Of a DNA stretch of 64,000 nucleotides, positions 12,245 to 31,568 are shown one piece after another (the stretch's first letter is position 1; each line of letters opens with the position of its first letter). The stretch lies in assembly GCF_008298035.1 (NCBI RefSeq), contig NZ_CP042910.1:4541001-4605000 (forward strand). The letters run 5' to 3'. This DNA comes from Gimesia maris (lineage in GTDB: Bacteria; Planctomycetota; Planctomycetia; Planctomycetales; Planctomycetaceae). The position numbers were made by a program, and so were the translations under genes. Under the pieces are notes generated by a model. It did not search any database. It worked only from the letters and a program-made list of their open reading frames with translations, and was not told the DNA's origin.

Positions 12245-13261
12245 TCATGCCATCGACGCTATTTTGTTGTCATTTTTGTTAAACGAGATTGTTGCCGTAT
12301 CCTGTGTAAGCGTATATTTGATTGGGATCACACTCTGTAATTCTTTGATCAGTTCATTGATCGAAACGGGTTTCGTCAGAAATGCTTCCACTCCCAGACT
12401 CAATATCTGATGTTTAATTGCCGGATAGCTTTGCCCCGTCAGAACAATTATTGGTATTTCACTGAGTAATGGATTCGACCTGATGCGGCGCATAATATAA
12501 ATGCCCTCCGCCTCTGGTAACACCAGGTCTGTAATAATCACATCTGGCATATGTTCCACAGCCATTTCATAACCTTGATCACCAGTGAAAGCAGACAGAC
12601 ACTCTACGCCGTGAGGTTTGAGTTTCATTTGCAGCGCTTTCGAAATATCACGATCATCATCAATTGACAGTACAATCGGAGGTCGCTTCTCACGGGAATC
12701 CGGGGAGACCGAGTCTGCATCCTGGGTTTGATCTGTGACATTCTCTTCTGAAGCAGTGTCAATCGGCGTCCCATCTGCTTCTGACAATTCATACTCAGCT
12801 TTGCCGATAGACTTGATGTAGGACAGGCTGAGATCTCGTGTTTCAGGAGTCTTTTGAGCTTCCTCTACCGGTTCAACAACTGGCTGGATATCAAGCTGCA
12901 GAAATTCCCTGGCGATCTCAGTAATCGTTGCTGGAGAACCGGGGCATTTCTGAATATACACCGCCCCGAGTTGTTTGCAACGTTGAATTGTCTCGGTATC
13001 TGTGTGGCCCGTATGTATAATCACTGGAATTCCATGGCAGCTTTCATCACCGTTCAACATTTCACACACCGCCAGGCCATTTCCGCTGGGCATGTCCACG
13101 TCCAGTATGATCAGGTTTGGCTTGATTCTCATCGCACCAATGAGTGCGTGAGAGGCATCGGGAGATCGCATCACGGTATAGCCTAAGCCTCTCAGGCGAA
13201 TAGCCAGAGCTTGTGATAACTCATGGTCATCATCTGCAATCAGTACCACTTTATCAGTCAT
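12245..13261 (-). CDS. Double-receiver (REC-REC) response regulator
   Basis: 338 residues with two receiver domains and no output domain. REC1 (about 5-120): IADDDHE, phospho-acceptor in LILDVDMPSG, switch Thr in IIHTGHT, and Lys in YIQKCPG (an extra Cys between the Lys and Pro). An acidic linker of about 90 residues follows. REC2 (about 212-330): SIDDDRD, acceptor in VIITDLVLPE, switch Thr in VLTGQS, and TKP. The start ATG overlaps the stop of the upstream receiver gene by 8 bp (ATGACTGA), so the two should be translationally coupled. It is probably a phosphate relay or sink within the cluster. Confidence 0.88.
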   Translation of the reverse strand: MTDKVVLIADDDHELSQALAIRLRGLGYTVMRSPDASHALIGAMRIKPNLIILDVDMPSGNGLAVCEMLNGDESCHGIPVIIHTGHTDTETIQRCKQLGAVYIQKCPGSPATITEIAREFLQLDIQPVVEPVEEAQKTPETRDLSLSYIKSIGKAEYELSEADGTPIDTASEENVTDQTQDADSVSPDSREKRPPIVLSIDDDRDISKALQMKLKPHGVECLSAFTGDQGYEMAVEHMPDVIITDLVLPEAEGIYIMRRIRSNPLLSEIPIIVLTGQSYPAIKHQILSLGVEAFLTKPVSINELIKELQSVIPIKYTLTQDTATISFNKNDNKIASMA

Positions 13262-13691
13262 AACTGTACTTCACTTTCATATTGGGAGTGGCATAAGTTG
13301 AACCCGGCAGTTCATCTTCTTCTGCCTGATCAATCGCCGCGTTCACAGCTTTGATCAGTTCATGGCCTTCATATGGTTTACTTAAAAAATAGCTTGCGCC
13401 GGCGTCCAGAGCTTTTTCCCTGTCCACGAGGCTCGCTGAGAGCATCACTACCGGTATCTGGCGTGTATCTGATTTTTGTTTCAGTTCATCCAGTGCGGTC
13501 AGGCCATCCTTTTGCGGCATCCTCACATCCATAACAATAGCCGTCGGTTGATCTCCGGTTGCATTCGCGACTGCTTGCATTCCATTGAGCGCGGTAGACG
13601 TTTCAAAACCGGCTACTGTCAGCCTGAGACTGGTGGCGCGAAGTATATCTGAATCATCATCGACCAGTAATATTCTCTTTCGACGCTCCAT
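13254..13691 (-). CDS. Single-domain response regulator
   Basis: A 145-residue receiver protein: VDDDSD acidic pocket, phospho-acceptor in AIVMDVRMPQKDG, switch Ser in VMLSASL, and SKPYEGHEL with the conserved Lys. It is CheY/DivK-like, with a short charged tail and no output domain. It is the first gene of a two-gene unit, its stop overlapping the start of the REC-REC gene by 8 bp. A 116-bp gap separates it from the REC-kinase gene upstream. Confidence 0.88.
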   Translation of the reverse strand: MERRKRILLVDDDSDILRATSLRLTVAGFETSTALNGMQAVANATGDQPTAIVMDVRMPQKDGLTALDELKQKSDTRQIPVVMLSASLVDREKALDAGASYFLSKPYEGHELIKAVNAAIDQAEEDELPGSTYATPNMKVKYSYD

Positions 13692-24750: not shown

Positions 24751-27060
24751 TCAACCGGCATTCATCTGATGCAGGATGCGAACGGTATCGCGGGCGGCAG
24801 TTTCCGGCTTGAGTGCCGTGGCAGCGATTCCCGAAACGACGCGGGTGATATTATGATCGACCTGACCTGCTTTTCCCCAGAGTGATCCGTTGGGGGAGGT
24901 CATATAAACGGAAAAGGTCCGGTGCCCGGTTCCCGGTCGTTCACCGATGATATGCAGGATGGCTCGATTGCCGGGCAATCCCCCGAACAGGAGCTCGCCT
25001 ACCTGGTAACCCGCGCGGACGCGGCCTGATCTCACGATAATATTCCGGTCGGCTGTTGAGAACCCTGCAGACTTTAACTCCTGTCTGAGCTGACTGAGGA
25101 AGGGGTCGAGATGTTCTTCCTGCATGATGGACAGGGCATTGAGTCCATCGGAGATTACAATCTGCACGTTATATTGATCGAGATAGGATTCACGCAGGTT
25201 CCGAATCGATTTGACGGATGATTTTGAAAGCTGTTCTCCAGTGGTGGGGTGGAGAATGTACTCCATCCGATCGCTGGAATTCGTTTCCACGGGAAGCACT
25301 TCGGGGACACTGGCGACAAACGCCGGAGTCAGCTCAGCCCAAATGCTCTGTTTGGCATCGTCGTAAATCTGATCGATCTGGATCTTCAACGCCGGCGCCA
25401 GTTCTCCCTGAGTTTTCCCGAAGCCTTCCGCCAGAAACAGTCCACGACTGCGGACTTCATTCATCTGTCTGCGACCTTCATTCAGGATCACTTCTTCGCC
25501 GCGGGTATCACCTTTTTTCCGTCGATACTGCAAATAAACGTGCAGCGGATTGCCAAAGTTACCGGTCGGTTTGCCCTGCTCGTCGATGACCTGCAGTTTC
25601 TGAAAGAACGACCACATGGCATCGTTGACGCGGTAGCCGAACTTCTCGCGAATTCTGACATGATCCTGAAACCCTGTAGTGAGGTAACCGAGCATGGGAT
25701 CAATCTTGGTCGGCAGAGCCATCAGGTAGGCCGGGTTGGCGGGCATGATCTGATCCAGACACCAGTCAAGATCGTCGAGAGAGACATCCATATGCAGGGT
25801 TGAGCAGACATCCAGACCAATGGTCAGGCCATGCAGCTTGCCCATGACGATGTCTTCCAGGCAACAGCGTACCAGTTGTTCGCGCGTGCGGAAGACCTCG
25901 GGGCCTATAAAGCCGGCGACATCATTCAGGTGTACCCAGGGAGCAGATTCCCGGCCGCTCTCCTGCTGTGCGGTCGCGACTTCCCGCGTCAGCGATCGAG
26001 CGAAACCATACTTGCGGGACTCGTGTAACACCATATCAAAACCATGGCTGTGTCCGTTAGTGAAGTCGGCCCCCTGCCCGGTTTCAAAGTATAAAGCGTA
26101 CTGCCCGGTGCGCGAGTGGGCGTAGTCGCGAATTTTCTTCAGATCGATGTCAAAGGTCTGATTGGCGGCATCACTACCGGCGATACTCTGGAACCAGAGG
26201 GCGGTACTGCCGGGGCTGCGGCGTTCGACTTCGGCCTGGACATCGATATGTGAGAGTACACAGTGTGGCAGAACGTGGTCGATTCCAAAAGTCACCAGCA
26301 AATCGCGGAGGACCAGTTCAATCGCAGCTACCGATTCAGGTTCACTGGAAACCGGATTCGTCCCCAGCACGACATCGCCTACTGCATACGACCAGCCATC
26401 CAGGACCTGCCAGAAGATATCATCCGGATTGTCAGTGGGAGAATTCGGTTGAATGCGGGCACCGAGATAACCTTTCGCACCAATCTGGCTGCCCGGCAAT
26501 GGATTGAAGATTTTGGAGCCAACTGTTATCAGTTCCTGCTGGCTCATCAGTTTGACGACGCAGCCAATCACGTCGCTGGAAAGACTCTGCGAAAGCTGTT
26601 TGATCGCTGCTTCATTTTCGGTCAGAAGAAACTGTTTCAGATCGCCTACGGTTTCAACAGTATGGGAAGCGGTTGAGATGGCTTTCGCCGGTATAATGTA
26701 TTCAGTCAACTTATCCTGATAGACCGGATGCGCGTTGATCTCTTTGATCCGGGTATTCGCCAGCAGCGATCTGGCATGCCGTCGAGAGGCTTGATCCGCG
26801 GCTGCCACGCCAATCATCTGATCTCCCTCTTTAAATTCATTCGCGGCGCCGAGAAGCTGGCAATACAGGACTGGATCGAAGGTGCCACGCATGCGATTGA
26901 TATAGAAGAACAGATCTTCTCCAGCGATAATTTCAGGAATTGAAACATCGCCGACACTTTCCGTTTCAGCGGAAGTTTTCCTGGACTGCGTGAAGGAAAG
27001 TGTCAGAGCCATCGAGCTTCCCAGCATCGCCTGTACGAAGTCACGTCTGTTCAACGGCAC
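24751..27060 (-). CDS. Fused EutB-EutC ethanolamine ammonia-lyase with Tat-like leader
   Basis: 769 residues. In most bacteria the large (EutB) and small (EutC) subunits of this adenosylcobalamin-dependent enzyme, which turns ethanolamine into acetaldehyde and ammonia, are separate. Here residues about 50-515 match EutB and about 560-769 match EutC. EutB substrate residues appear conserved: Arg202 and Gln204 (GARIQPN), Asn235 (LGTNPV), Glu326 (YFETGQG), Asp417 (GLDVCS). EutC shows IVISDGLNA, RSGRVRAG and GERPGTGHR. The N-terminus NRRDFVQAMLGSSMALTL is twin-arginine-like, absent from E. coli EutB. Start: GTG at 27060 after AAGGAA. No other eut gene is present. It lies 116 bp downstream of the DUF1501 gene, same strand. 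Export and activity are inference. Confidence 0.9.
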   Translation of the reverse strand: MPLNRRDFVQAMLGSSMALTLSFTQSRKTSAETESVGDVSIPEIIAGEDLFFYINRMRGTFDPVLYCQLLGAANEFKEGDQMIGVAAADQASRRHARSLLANTRIKEINAHPVYQDKLTEYIIPAKAISTASHTVETVGDLKQFLLTENEAAIKQLSQSLSSDVIGCVVKLMSQQELITVGSKIFNPLPGSQIGAKGYLGARIQPNSPTDNPDDIFWQVLDGWSYAVGDVVLGTNPVSSEPESVAAIELVLRDLLVTFGIDHVLPHCVLSHIDVQAEVERRSPGSTALWFQSIAGSDAANQTFDIDLKKIRDYAHSRTGQYALYFETGQGADFTNGHSHGFDMVLHESRKYGFARSLTREVATAQQESGRESAPWVHLNDVAGFIGPEVFRTREQLVRCCLEDIVMGKLHGLTIGLDVCSTLHMDVSLDDLDWCLDQIMPANPAYLMALPTKIDPMLGYLTTGFQDHVRIREKFGYRVNDAMWSFFQKLQVIDEQGKPTGNFGNPLHVYLQYRRKKGDTRGEEVILNEGRRQMNEVRSRGLFLAEGFGKTQGELAPALKIQIDQIYDDAKQSIWAELTPAFVASVPEVLPVETNSSDRMEYILHPTTGEQLSKSSVKSIRNLRESYLDQYNVQIVISDGLNALSIMQEEHLDPFLSQLRQELKSAGFSTADRNIIVRSGRVRAGYQVGELLFGGLPGNRAILHIIGERPGTGHRTFSVYMTSPNGSLWGKAGQVDHNITRVVSGIAATALKPETAARDTVRILHQMNAG

Positions 27061-27176
27061 GATTCAGATTCCTTTTAAAAATTGAATTAGAACTCAAGCA
27101 AGCAGGGTTAGCGCGAACTGACAGGAGCTATTTATGATACCATGCTGGAAAACGTGAGGGCAAGAAATGACTGAGA

Positions 27177-28592
27177 TTAACTCAGAATCTCCTGCACCAC
27201 GTGTCCGTGCACATCTGTCAGGCGGCGGTCGATCCCGGCGGTGCGGAATGTAAGTTGTTTGTGATCGATCCCCAGCAGATGCAGGATCGTGGCATGCAGG
27301 TCATAACAATACGTTTTCCCTTCTGCAGTCTGGTATCCCAGATCATCACTTTTTCCATGACTGGCTCCCGCTTTCACACCTGCTCCCACCAGCCAGGTCA
27401 CGAAAGTTCCTCGATTATGATCGCGTCCCAGACTTCCCTGCGCAAAGGGAGTGCGACCGAATTCAGTCGTCCAGATCACCAGCGTATCCTCCAGCATTCC
27501 CCGTGATTTCAAATCCCGAAACAGGGCTGCAATTGGCTGATCGACACTTTTCGCGATGGGGGGGAGTTCTGTCTGAATGTTACCGTGGTTGTCCCAGTTG
27601 TTGACCGCCCCTTGCGGACCACTCCAGACCTGCACAAAACGGGTCCCCCGCTCGAGCAGACGTCTTCCCAGCAGACAGCGTCTGCCAAAGTCTTCGGTCT
27701 CCTTTTGATCTAGTCCGTAGGCGACGTGAGTCTCTTTGGTTTCGCGAGACAGATCGAAGGCTTCCGGCGCGCTCAACTGCATTTTCGCTGCGAGTTCTCC
27801 CGCTGCAATTCGTGCTTCCAGCCGGGAGTCATCAGGATGGGATGCGGCGTGCTGTCGATTCAACTGCTGCAGTAATGCGACCGTCTGCTGGTCTGCAGAA
27901 CCGCGGGCGAATTTGTACTGCGCGTCGGCAAACAGATCTGGAATCGGTGTCTGGCTGGCGGCATTCACCAGAGTTCCCTGATGCTTCGCGGGCAGAAATC
28001 CACAGCTGAAATTGGCTTTCTGATTGTAAGGGAGTCCGCGGCTGTCGGGGAGTACCACAAACGTGGGCAGGTTGTCGGCAAGATTTCCCAGAGCATACGA
28101 GACCCAGGCCCCCAGGCAGGGGAAACCTGGCAGCATGAATCCGGTATTCATCATGTAACTGGCCGGTCCATGCACGTTCGTTTTTGTTGTCATCGCCATC
28201 AGGAATGCTAACTCATCCACAATCTGTGCCTGATGCGGAAAGACAGAACTGACCCAGCGACCGGTTTCCCCATGCTGTTTAAATTCGAACGGACTCTTCA
28301 TCACCGAACCGACGGCTCCCGTGAACCCTTCCGGTTTTTCCTTCGGTCCCAGATTCTGTCCGTGCAGCCGTTTCAGTTCAGGTTTATAATCGAAGGTATC
28401 CATCGGGCTGGCACCACCGTTCATAAACAGTTGAATCACCCGCTTCACTTTCGCCCGATGATGCAGTCCGCCGTTCAAATCCGGTTCAGCAGCGTTTGAT
28501 GATTCACTTCCCAGCCAGCAAGCCAGAACGGCAGTGCCGAAACTGTTTCCCGAACATGAGAGCAGTTCTCGCCTGGTGAGTCGATTGTACAT
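27177..28592 (-). CDS. DUF1501 protein with leader
   Basis: 471 residues. The start carries LTRRELLSCSGNSFGTAVLA, a twin-arginine-like leader. The DUF1501 signature follows: RVIQLFMNGGASPMDTFDYKP, NVHGPASYMMNTG, FPCLGAWVSYALG, FVVLPDSRGLPYN, and a C-terminal TLVIWTTEFGRTPFAQG then GRDHNRGTFVTWLVGAG. The fold is related to alkaline phosphatases and sulfatases, but the activity is unproven. The gene is 15 bp downstream of the DUF1549/DUF1553 gene, the standard planctomycete pairing, so they are co-transcribed and likely act on the same exported substrate. Confidence 0.92.
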   Translation of the reverse strand: MYNRLTRRELLSCSGNSFGTAVLACWLGSESSNAAEPDLNGGLHHRAKVKRVIQLFMNGGASPMDTFDYKPELKRLHGQNLGPKEKPEGFTGAVGSVMKSPFEFKQHGETGRWVSSVFPHQAQIVDELAFLMAMTTKTNVHGPASYMMNTGFMLPGFPCLGAWVSYALGNLADNLPTFVVLPDSRGLPYNQKANFSCGFLPAKHQGTLVNAASQTPIPDLFADAQYKFARGSADQQTVALLQQLNRQHAASHPDDSRLEARIAAGELAAKMQLSAPEAFDLSRETKETHVAYGLDQKETEDFGRRCLLGRRLLERGTRFVQVWSGPQGAVNNWDNHGNIQTELPPIAKSVDQPIAALFRDLKSRGMLEDTLVIWTTEFGRTPFAQGSLGRDHNRGTFVTWLVGAGVKAGASHGKSDDLGYQTAEGKTYCYDLHATILHLLGIDHKQLTFRTAGIDRRLTDVHGHVVQEILS

Positions 28593-28607: not shown

Positions 28608-31568
28608 CTATTCGACAAACAGAAATTCATTGCTGTTGAGAACGAGACGACAGACCGATTCCAGACCATGCTGCTGTGCGAGTACCGTCATTTGATTCAA
28701 TTCATCAGGTGTTGGATCACGAAGCCAGGTCCAGCGGATCACTTGTCTGATTTGATCCGATAAATTTGATTCCGACTTTGCTGCCCTTTCGGCCATCTTC
28801 TGAGCGAAATGTAAAACAAATCGGCTGTTTAACAATACCAGCGATTGCAGGGGCGACGCAGAAAAACCGCGAGTCGGAGACAGCAGCCCCAGGTCCGGAA
28901 AATCCAGCGCATCCATCAAAGGATCGGGAATTCCCCGCCAGACGACACGATAGATACTTCGCCTGTGCGCATCGGGGCGATTCAAATCGAACTGATCATA
29001 GTGGAGCACGGGAGTGACCTGAGGGCCAGGGGTAGTTGTAAAATGGGAATCTCCAGGGCCTCCCTGCTTCAGATCAAGTTCTCCGCTGACAAGTAATACG
29101 GCATCTCGATAGCTGTCTGCATCAAGCCTTCGTATTGACATGCGGGCTAACAGGCGATTTTCCGGATCATGTTTCACCAGCTCGGAACGGGATGCTGAGG
29201 ACTGACGATACGTGCTGCTGTTACAAATCAGACGATGCAGGTGCTTTAGAGATCCATTGTGATCGCGAAATTCACAAGCCAGCCAGTCCAGCAGTTCCGG
29301 ATGCGTAGGCGTTCCCCCCATACGACCGAAATCGTTAGGTGTATCACAAAGCCCTTTTCCAAAATGATAATGCCACACGCGATTCGCAATGCTCCGCCAG
29401 GTCAAAGGATTTCTTGAGTCAGCCAGCCAGTCGGCCAGGGCAGCTCGACGCGCCGCTTCGGGATGGGATTGTGGTAAATCGAACCGACCGGGCAATGGCG
29501 ACAATGCAGTTAAAGCCCCCGGAGGAACAATTTCTCGTGGCTTTTCAAGATCGCCTCGCGCCAGCAGATGGATTTCGCGAGGCTGCGAATATCTTACCAT
29601 TCCACGTTCATTCACAGCCTCCGCTGCAGCAGCGTAGACTTTGTCCTGAGGGGGAAGCTGCTTTATTTCCTGCTCTGCACGATACTTCAAAACGAGGGAA
29701 GATAGCGATAACTGTTGCGCCGATGTTCTCTGCGATTCAGGAAGACTAAGTACTGTTTCTGCTTCGGCGGGGAGTGCAAGCACATCCAGGTTCGCTGAGT
29801 CGGTTACGGATAGTTTAAATCGACCGATTGTATGTGCACCGCCATGCAACTGTTTTAGAGTCACGACGATTCTGGTATCGGGATCTACTTTTAATGCCAA
29901 TTCCGGTTCGAAAATGGCAAAATGACCAACGCTGACTTTAGGATAAATTCCCCATGCAGTTTTCAGGTTGCCGTCGATGGCATGTTCGATCGTCCAACCA
30001 TCCTGATTGAAATCAGCAGTCGCCCGCCGAATGGGAATCACAGTTCCGGCTGACGCATTTGGCGGAAACAACTGCAGTTCGAATTCGCTCAGATGCAGAT
30101 TGCCGTTATGGGCTCTGCCGGGCCCCTTGTGTGGAAGTGAATCATCCGTCAACACATCCAGGCGGATGGCGTTGACAGTTGAAAGATTTGTATTTCCAGT
30201 TACGACAACCGTTTCCTGATCAGTGGGCTTCCCTTCTGACAGGATGGAACCATCTGGCAGGCGTTTTAACTTTGCACCATGTGTTGAGACGAACACATCC
30301 GGCTGTAACGTTTCCCAACGCGGTTGAGGACGGCGAGTCTGCTCCCACTCCGTGACGAGTTTTTGATTTTCGGGTAAGAACAATACTTCAGAATTCTGTG
30401 TCAGCGCTGCAGTCTTCAATGCTTTCCAGTGCTCACGCTTCGCTGCCACCTGTGGATCCGCATCGAACGAGACATCCCCCTTCCCGACCCCTGCAAAAAC
30501 AGCCTGGAGAGCAAAATAATCTGCCTGTGTGATGGGATCGAATTTATGGGTATGGCATCGCGCGCAGTTTGCAGTGGTGCTGACAAAAGCGCCCATGGTC
30601 TGTGTCACCAGGTCATCGCGATCCAGGTATTCAAATGATTTCGGAGCGGTCGCGGCGGCACTTTGATCATAAGGACCTGCTCCCAGAAACCCTAGTGCCG
30701 GCATTAATTCTGATCTCTCGGGAAAGAAATAATCGACGGCGAGTTGCTCTCGGATAAATTGTGACCATGGAACATCTGCATTCAAACGATTGATGACATA
30801 ATCACGGTATCTCCAGGCATGCGGTCGGAATACATCATGTTCGAACCCATGCGAGTCAGCAAAGTGAACGGTATCAAGCCAATGGCGCGTCCAGCGTTCA
30901 CCGTAGTGTGGAGATTCCAGCAAGCGATCTACCAGCCGGGCATAGGCATCAGGAGCCGTGTCATTCTCAAACGCTTCCACCTCGGCAATGTCAGGCAGCA
31001 GACCATGTAAATCAAAGGTCAACCGCCGAATCAAAGTACGGCGGTCCGCTGCTGGCGATGCAGATATCCCTTTTTCTTTCAGGGGTGCCTGGATAAATGC
31101 ATCGATCGGATTTCCCGTTTGAACCCCCGGAACTTCCGGACGCTGCAGCGGTTTCAAAGACCACCAGTCGGTGGCATTGGCAGTTTCACTGGTTGGCTTT
31201 GTATTCCGCGGATCAACGGCTCCCTCTTTCACCCAACGCACCAGGATTGCAATCTCCTGCTCAGATAATTTCGTATCAGGCATCTGTAATTCGGGATCGG
31301 TGTGTTGAACCGCTTTGATCAGGAGGCTCTGCTCTGGCTGACCGGGCATGATCGCCGGGCCTTGTGTTCCTCCTTTTTTCCAGCCACTCTGCCAGTCCAG
31401 AGTGAGCCCGCCTTCCATCAGACCAGCAGAATGAGAATGGCATTCATAACAATGCTCGTTCAGAATGGGTTCAACCGATTCTCGAAAGAATGCATTGTCG
31501 TCTGCAAAGCTGCTGGAAACCGACGTCAGCAGACTGAGTAAGAAACATGAGACGAGGATGTCTTTCAT
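28608..31568 (-). CDS. Planctomycete cytochrome DUF1549/DUF1553 protein with sugar-binding-like insert
   Basis: 986 residues with a signal peptide (LVSCFLLSLLTSVSSSFA). The N-terminal cytochrome module has CYECH (CXXCH) near residue 40 and ends near residue 105. DUF1549 follows (RRTLIRRLTFDLHGLLP, PHYGERWTRHWLDTVHFAD), with a second CXXCH in CARCHTHKFDPIT. DUF1553 is C-terminal (NPLTWRSIANRVWHYHFGKG, GGTPTHPELLDWLA). Between them, residues about 440-600 hold a beta-rich stretch (AIRLDVLTDDSLP, FNQDGWTIEHAIDGN, KTAWGIYPK) resembling an F5/8-type discoidin/galactose-binding module. Its start overlaps the iclR stop by 4 bp (ATGA). Such proteins are suspected in planctomycete polysaccharide use. 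Confidence 0.9.
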   Translation of the reverse strand: MKDILVSCFLLSLLTSVSSSFADDNAFFRESVEPILNEHCYECHSHSAGLMEGGLTLDWQSGWKKGGTQGPAIMPGQPEQSLLIKAVQHTDPELQMPDTKLSEQEIAILVRWVKEGAVDPRNTKPTSETANATDWWSLKPLQRPEVPGVQTGNPIDAFIQAPLKEKGISASPAADRRTLIRRLTFDLHGLLPDIAEVEAFENDTAPDAYARLVDRLLESPHYGERWTRHWLDTVHFADSHGFEHDVFRPHAWRYRDYVINRLNADVPWSQFIREQLAVDYFFPERSELMPALGFLGAGPYDQSAAATAPKSFEYLDRDDLVTQTMGAFVSTTANCARCHTHKFDPITQADYFALQAVFAGVGKGDVSFDADPQVAAKREHWKALKTAALTQNSEVLFLPENQKLVTEWEQTRRPQPRWETLQPDVFVSTHGAKLKRLPDGSILSEGKPTDQETVVVTGNTNLSTVNAIRLDVLTDDSLPHKGPGRAHNGNLHLSEFELQLFPPNASAGTVIPIRRATADFNQDGWTIEHAIDGNLKTAWGIYPKVSVGHFAIFEPELALKVDPDTRIVVTLKQLHGGAHTIGRFKLSVTDSANLDVLALPAEAETVLSLPESQRTSAQQLSLSSLVLKYRAEQEIKQLPPQDKVYAAAAEAVNERGMVRYSQPREIHLLARGDLEKPREIVPPGALTALSPLPGRFDLPQSHPEAARRAALADWLADSRNPLTWRSIANRVWHYHFGKGLCDTPNDFGRMGGTPTHPELLDWLACEFRDHNGSLKHLHRLICNSSTYRQSSASRSELVKHDPENRLLARMSIRRLDADSYRDAVLLVSGELDLKQGGPGDSHFTTTPGPQVTPVLHYDQFDLNRPDAHRRSIYRVVWRGIPDPLMDALDFPDLGLLSPTRGFSASPLQSLVLLNSRFVLHFAQKMAERAAKSESNLSDQIRQVIRWTWLRDPTPDELNQMTVLAQQHGLESVCRLVLNSNEFLFVE

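Follow-up and report, generated by a model that had tools for sequence, protein, structure and literature searches.

A fused EutB-EutC ethanolamine ammonia-lyase with a predicted twin-arginine export leader in Gimesia maris

Background

Characterised ethanolamine ammonia-lyases are described as cytoplasmic (PMC5821096, partial text). Two fused enzymes of Pelobacter carbinolicus, EutBC1 and EutBC2, whose fusion was presented as unusual, are 70% identical and, like the enzyme described here, come without eutA; growth of this organism on ethanolamine was reported, and genes for a corrinoid-type ABC transporter, a VWFA protein, an ATPase and an outer-membrane channel lie nearby (PMC3543383, partial text). 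Uptake of ethanolamine is assumed in that paper, and the available part of its text mentions no leader on EutBC (PMC3543383). No account of the export of an ethanolamine ammonia-lyase was found in the open-access literature, most subscription papers being outside the scope of the search. The EutB-EutC fusion has already been published; the leader described below appears not to have been.

The reductive dehalogenase RdhA has another fold and another chemistry, using cobalamin plus Fe-S clusters, and is not an adenosylcobalamin radical lyase. It is a cobalamin enzyme exported in folded form by an RRxFxK Tat leader, and is a precedent for the export of a loaded corrinoid enzyme (PMC6095959, partial text).

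Gene and domain organisation

The window analysed is a stretch of 64,000 nucleotides of G. maris (contig NZ_CP042910.1, positions 4,541,001 to 4,605,000). One uninterrupted ORF on its minus strand (24751-27060; all parts of the gene given below lie on this strand) starts with GTG, has a Shine-Dalgarno-like AAAGGA nine bases 5′ of the start (27070-27075) and encodes 769 amino acids. The ORF, the Pfam and NCBIfam profiles and structural matches identify it as a gene for a single-chain EutB-EutC ethanolamine ammonia-lyase, and from its sequence and that of its relatives the product is probably exported.

An earlier sequence-only reading had taken the two subunits to be fused, and both Pfam domains were indeed found in the one chain, EutB with 456.7 bits over residues 68-499 (cut-off 25) and EutC with 116.9 bits over residues 555-767 (cut-off 25.8), each with its own fold. 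A predicted leader (residues 1-31; 26968-27060) is followed by the EutB part (residues 51-509; 25534-26910), a linker recognised as the gap between the two structural matches (residues 510-524; 25489-25533) and the EutC part (residues 525-769; 24754-25488). The protein passed the NCBIfam EutB model (594 versus a cut-off of 554) and missed the NCBIfam EutC equivalog cut-off (91 versus 230 bits), a model of the separate subunit of classical enzymes. Whereas E. coli EutB and EutC (3abo, 5ysr) are two chains, the Gimesia enzyme is one chain with a predicted export leader, and its EutB part is only about 31% identical to E. coli EutB. It is the sole EutB of its genome, which also encodes a PduO-type adenosyltransferase.

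Conservation of active-site residues

Alignment to E. coli EutB placed R160, Q162, N193, E287 and D362 at R202, Q204, N235, E326 and D417 of the Gimesia protein, so that the five substrate residues named in the sequence-only reading are intact and right to the number; E. coli S247 corresponds to S292. We take the first five to be substrate contacts, and roles of single residues in EutB and EutC are presumed throughout. Equivalents of all six were found in 119/119 listed planctomycete-type relatives (P0037, with fewer than 700 residues, being omitted from the 120 entries) and in 120/120 listed Desulfobacterota-type relatives. The EutC positions D167, L169, R206, V207, G214 and G227-E228-R229-P230-G231 were likewise present in all 119 and all 120, and G168 in 119/119 and 119/120, respectively. 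In the Gimesia protein the EutC motifs are DGL (residues 638-640), RV (680-681), G688 and GERPG (706-710).

These residues bear on the possibility of an exported protein that has ceased to be an ethanolamine ammonia-lyase and, in the periplasm, uses a different amine or serves only to bind corrinoid. The low identity to E. coli EutB would agree with such a change, as would the conservation in both exported sets of just 74 of the 137 columns invariant in eight classical EutB proteins, the corrinoid-transport-like genes adjoining the Sec-leadered forms described below, and a related leaderless fused group without Asp362, by which substrates may shift in the superfamily; yet we consider it unlikely, given that the six tested EutB residues are kept in 239/239 listed relatives and the EutC motifs nearly always, and that growth of P. 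carbinolicus on ethanolamine is reported with such enzymes only (PMC3543383, partial text). An exported ethanolamine ammonia-lyase remains our preferred reading.

The leaderless group just mentioned (group A: L041, L044, L078, L123 and L124) has the EutB-EutC fusion in common with the Gimesia protein and differs from it by the missing leader, by the presence of EutA in 5/5 genomes and by the replacement of Asp362 by Ala or Ser; EutA adjoins the fused gene in four of them and EutH in two. Because the substrate-binding Asp362 is replaced, these proteins may use another amine as substrate. All tested residues are intact in a second leaderless fused group from Geobacter-type genomes (L120, L121, L122, L125, L145 and L146), of which the L120 gene has as neighbours a DUF6599 gene and a gene for a Tat-leadered aldo/keto reductase with a ferredoxin-type domain. 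A CC pair in place of A344/G345, considered as an export-linked cysteine change, was rejected as unspecific, being half present in leaderless group C.

Twin-arginine and Sec-type leaders

The N-terminus of the Gimesia protein reads MPLNRRDFVQAMLGSSMALTLSFTQSRKTSA, with the twin-arginine motif NRRDFVQ at residues 4-10 (27031-27051) and a putative signal-peptidase site after TSA (residues 29-31), which we assign by the A-x-A-type rule. In the predicted structure, pLDDT falls below 50 mainly at residues 1-6 and 9-35. The motif NRR[DE]FV[QH] stands behind ATG or GTG in six relatives read as DNA (L001, L039, L040, L042, L043 and L046). Among the best 120 of 6910 database matches, which are planctomycete-type, 113 reach the leader (50 or more residues N-terminal to a conserved anchor), and RR followed by any residue and a hydrophobic one was found in 103 of these; the other ten start at an internal codon, about at the hydrophobic part of the leader. 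Within the 103, F occupies position +3 in 96 and L or V position +4 in 87, and adjacent positions are variable. None of eight classical EutB controls had RR within the first 30 residues, a difference greater than chance would give, and their hydrophobic-stretch peak was 0.8.

The h-region of the Gimesia protein has only moderate hydrophobicity (Kyte-Doolittle mean 1.25 for its best 15-residue stretch), and the NCBIfam Tat-signal model TIGR01409 did not match it, matching 5/55 aligned members. The Tat-like leader proposed from the sequence is upheld by conservation of the twin-arginine motif in relatives; with a weak h-region and no profile match, the argument for Tat is drawn from that conservation. 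TatC, a component of the Tat translocase, is encoded in the same genome (202.7 bits).

Among the 27 genome-contig loci that reach the N-terminus, 24 have RR and three (L024, L027 and L029) a Sec-type leader. L023, counted among the 24, and L076 have RR without the usual in-frame upstream start codon, and in L020 and P0120 a lipobox-like cysteine accompanies the Tat motif. With L029 as the query, 120 Desulfobacterota-type proteins were listed, of which 112 reach the leader; every one of these 112 has a Sec-type leader with a stretch of strong hydrophobicity (15-residue mean 1.6 or more, median 2.6), and RR is present in two.

The fusion, which the earlier reading had proposed to follow in other planctomycetes, was found there: EutB is present in 21 of 294 genomes of the phylum; in seven it has the length of the classical two-gene form and in fourteen it is fused, the latter comprising ten with a Tat leader and four without a leader (L041, L044, L045 and L049). 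EutB was also found in 50/244 genomes from the class of a Geobacter-labelled genome, where, leaving out L140, whose N-terminus was missed by the anchor pattern, 30 distinct exported-type places were readable, 28 of them Sec-like by eye and two Tat-like (L128 and L138).

In a tree of 82 EutB domains, made by a quick method, the exported type formed one clade of 59 rows with a support of 96, consisting of 30 Tat, 26 Sec, two leaderless (L114 and L115) and one unclear row. At least two changes are needed to explain the Tat and Sec labels, and the Tat-like L128 and L138 were placed inside the Sec branch; this tree carries a caution about long branches that meet between the leaderless groups and the other rows, and about an odd composition of L115 and L122. 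L114 and L115 are sisters inside the exported clade and have no in-frame leader, for which loss of export or an assembly fault are both possible.

The protein might instead be an ordinary cytoplasmic ethanolamine ammonia-lyase whose N-terminus is extended for targeting or stability and plays no part in export, as would suit the location of the characterised enzymes (PMC5821096, partial text), the leaderless L114 and L115 and the weak response of the family to the Tat-signal model. We hold this to be quite improbable: RR is conserved in the 103 listed relatives against an otherwise variable leader, classical EutB controls have neither RR nor a comparable hydrophobic stretch, the sister branch has Sec-type leaders of quite different sequence instead, and a Tat pair is nested in that Sec branch. 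The idea of a periplasmic adenosylcobalamin lyase, called conceivable in the sequence-only reading, gains strongly from the near-invariant RRxF[L/V], the Sec leaders of the sister branch and the nested Tat pair.

Gene neighbourhoods and riboswitches

Neighbourhoods were compared for 26 Tat loci and for 22 Sec loci from 19 genomes, a subset with wide stretches in which L118, L166 and L167 are second copies. Genes for a membrane protein, an ABC ATPase, Peripla_BP_2, a FecCD permease, MoxR and DUF58 lie downstream in 16/22 Sec-type loci (15/19 genomes), and an SBP_bac_6 binding protein and a Gcw_chp-like protein upstream in 18/22; the module was recognised through its resemblance to two loci, one of Geobacter type and one labelled Acidobacteria. 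The top NCBIfam rows for the ATPase and the permease were corrinoid/B12 transporters, below the cut-offs. FecCD permease, MoxR and DUF58 were found in 0/26 Tat loci. The corrinoid-type module is therefore present in 16/22 Sec versus 0/26 Tat loci (Fisher p 3e-8), but an independent association with the Sec leader was rejected, as the counts come mostly from one branch and the single independent contrast is the Tat pair L157/L158, nested in the Sec branch and without the module. The Sec loci L159 and L160 also lack it, and the L027 stretch stops just past the gene.

MoxR/DUF58/VWA-type sets assist cofactor or activation steps elsewhere. Genes of the MoxR, DUF58 and VWA/BatA-like kinds are found repeatedly after Sec-leadered EutBC (L119:14423-19103 and L029:16071-20962), and by analogy they are candidates for a reactivase. 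An aldehyde ferredoxin oxidoreductase is encoded within reach of the gene in L027 and L029. In L160 a glycerophosphodiester phosphodiesterase with a lipoprotein-like start is encoded upstream of Sec-leadered EutBC (12516-13556, minus strand) and could be an extracytoplasmic source of ethanolamine.

A cobalamin riboswitch was found upstream of a TonB-dependent receptor gene in L029 and adjoining the first EutBC copy in L118, and in none of the other twelve Geobacter-type loci scanned. Since none was found in the window or elsewhere in its genome, control of the Gimesia gene by such a riboswitch was rejected. One sampled genome, which we take to be that of P. carbinolicus, has two EutBC copies that are 70.8% identical; each carries a Sec leader, and a cobalamin riboswitch lies in the interval that separates them. 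On this presumed match EutBC1 and EutBC2 have a Sec-type leader, in contrast to the Tat-type leader of the Gimesia protein.

Upstream of the Gimesia lyase gene, on the same strand, lie genes of the DUF1501 (27177-28592) and PSCyt (28608-31568) families; the next gene encodes an IclR-type regulator. That these form a planctomycete operon with the lyase, for example by freeing ethanolamine outside the cell for it, is very unlikely: the nearer gene, DUF1501, is just 116 bp away and DUF1501 relatives occur at 8/26 Tat loci, but this is near chance with 96 matches in the genome (0.25 expected per 20 kb), and in L001, which belongs to the same genus, genes closely related to PSCyt and DUF1501 (87% and 76% identical) sit several kb from the lyase gene. 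Because both families are so common in the genome, the adjacency means little, and it was rejected as a functional clue. The 96 DUF1501 matches in this 7.8-Mb genome represent a large paralogous family.

Distribution of EutA and EutH

Unlike the canonical Eut pathway, the G. maris genome has neither EutA nor EutH by whole-genome search; the earlier remark that no EutA is near thus extends to the entire genome. Full EutA was found in 14/94 genomes. Most genomes gave weak matches of 20-34 bits, which span about 40-105 positions of the profile within frames of about 280-520 residues and were excluded from the count. The 55 genomes with the exported type only, which take in G311 (one copy without a clear leader) and G313 (leader uncertain), include one with EutA (G316) and none with EutH. 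In G316, a full EutA (455 bits; L109:7756-9285, minus strand) is encoded away from the only EutB match of that genome, which is Sec-leadered. EutH was found in 3/80 genomes (G299, G426 and G504), where gene order puts it next to a leaderless fused gene in every case.

Absence of EutA was rejected as a mark of export and, as evidence in the sequence-only reading, does not discriminate: it is likewise missing from 16/24 genomes with classical two-gene EutBC (present in 0/7 planctomycete genomes and in 8/17 of the Geobacter-type class) and from 6/6 genomes of leaderless group C. The overall pattern fits a cytoplasmic enzyme that needs a permease and a reactivase and an exported one that needs neither, but the fit is not clean, because of these classical and group C genomes, because both L114/L115 genomes also lack EutA, and because group A, which has it, is without Asp362.

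Proposed export and its implications

From the computed fusion, fold, residues, leaders, branch structure and neighbours we infer the following course of export, cofactor loading and reaction. Gimesia and most planctomycetes would export the enzyme by the Tat route, the chain folding and taking up adenosylcobalamin in the cytoplasm, where the adenosyltransferase encoded in the genome could serve, and crossing the inner membrane folded. Once in the periplasm, the mature enzyme would cleave ethanolamine to acetaldehyde and ammonia; an ethanolamine permease would then be unnecessary, and the aldehyde would arise outside the cytoplasm. In the Desulfobacterota branch, export would be by Sec; since Sec threads unfolded chains, insertion of the cofactor would have to wait until the chain is in the periplasm. 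In this branch the gene usually adjoins the corrinoid/iron-type ABC transporter and the MoxR-DUF58-VWA set. This proposed contrast, with Sec forms loaded in the periplasm and Tat forms leaving loaded, is drawn mostly from one branch.

Adenosylcobalamin enzymes become inactivated during turnover, which counts against an exported enzyme, and we know of no periplasmic reactivation for them. More tentatively, and with less than even probability, the exported proteins may constitute a family of adenosylcobalamin radical enzymes that spans several phyla and works outside the cytoplasm. Ethanolamine breakdown in the periplasm would then require neither permease nor microcompartment nor EutA, the Tat forms being exported loaded and used until spent, and the Sec forms being loaded and perhaps repaired in the periplasm with the aid of the neighbouring transporter and a MoxR-DUF58-VWA set replacing EutA.

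If the enzyme is exported, an ethanolamine ammonia-lyase would work outside the cytoplasm, contrary to its accepted location, and adenosylcobalamin radical chemistry would take place there; this would be a third way of handling acetaldehyde, besides the free cytoplasm and microcompartments. Because one enzyme exists in Tat and Sec versions, the site of corrinoid cofactor insertion becomes open to direct test. What is concluded from eutBC genes in planctomycete and Geobacter-type genomes would also change. Several public entries of such genes begin after the twin-arginine motif: P0008, P0009, P0010, P0012, P0017, P0020 and P0031 start at an internal Met and so omit the motif, which in the window lies within 27031-27060.
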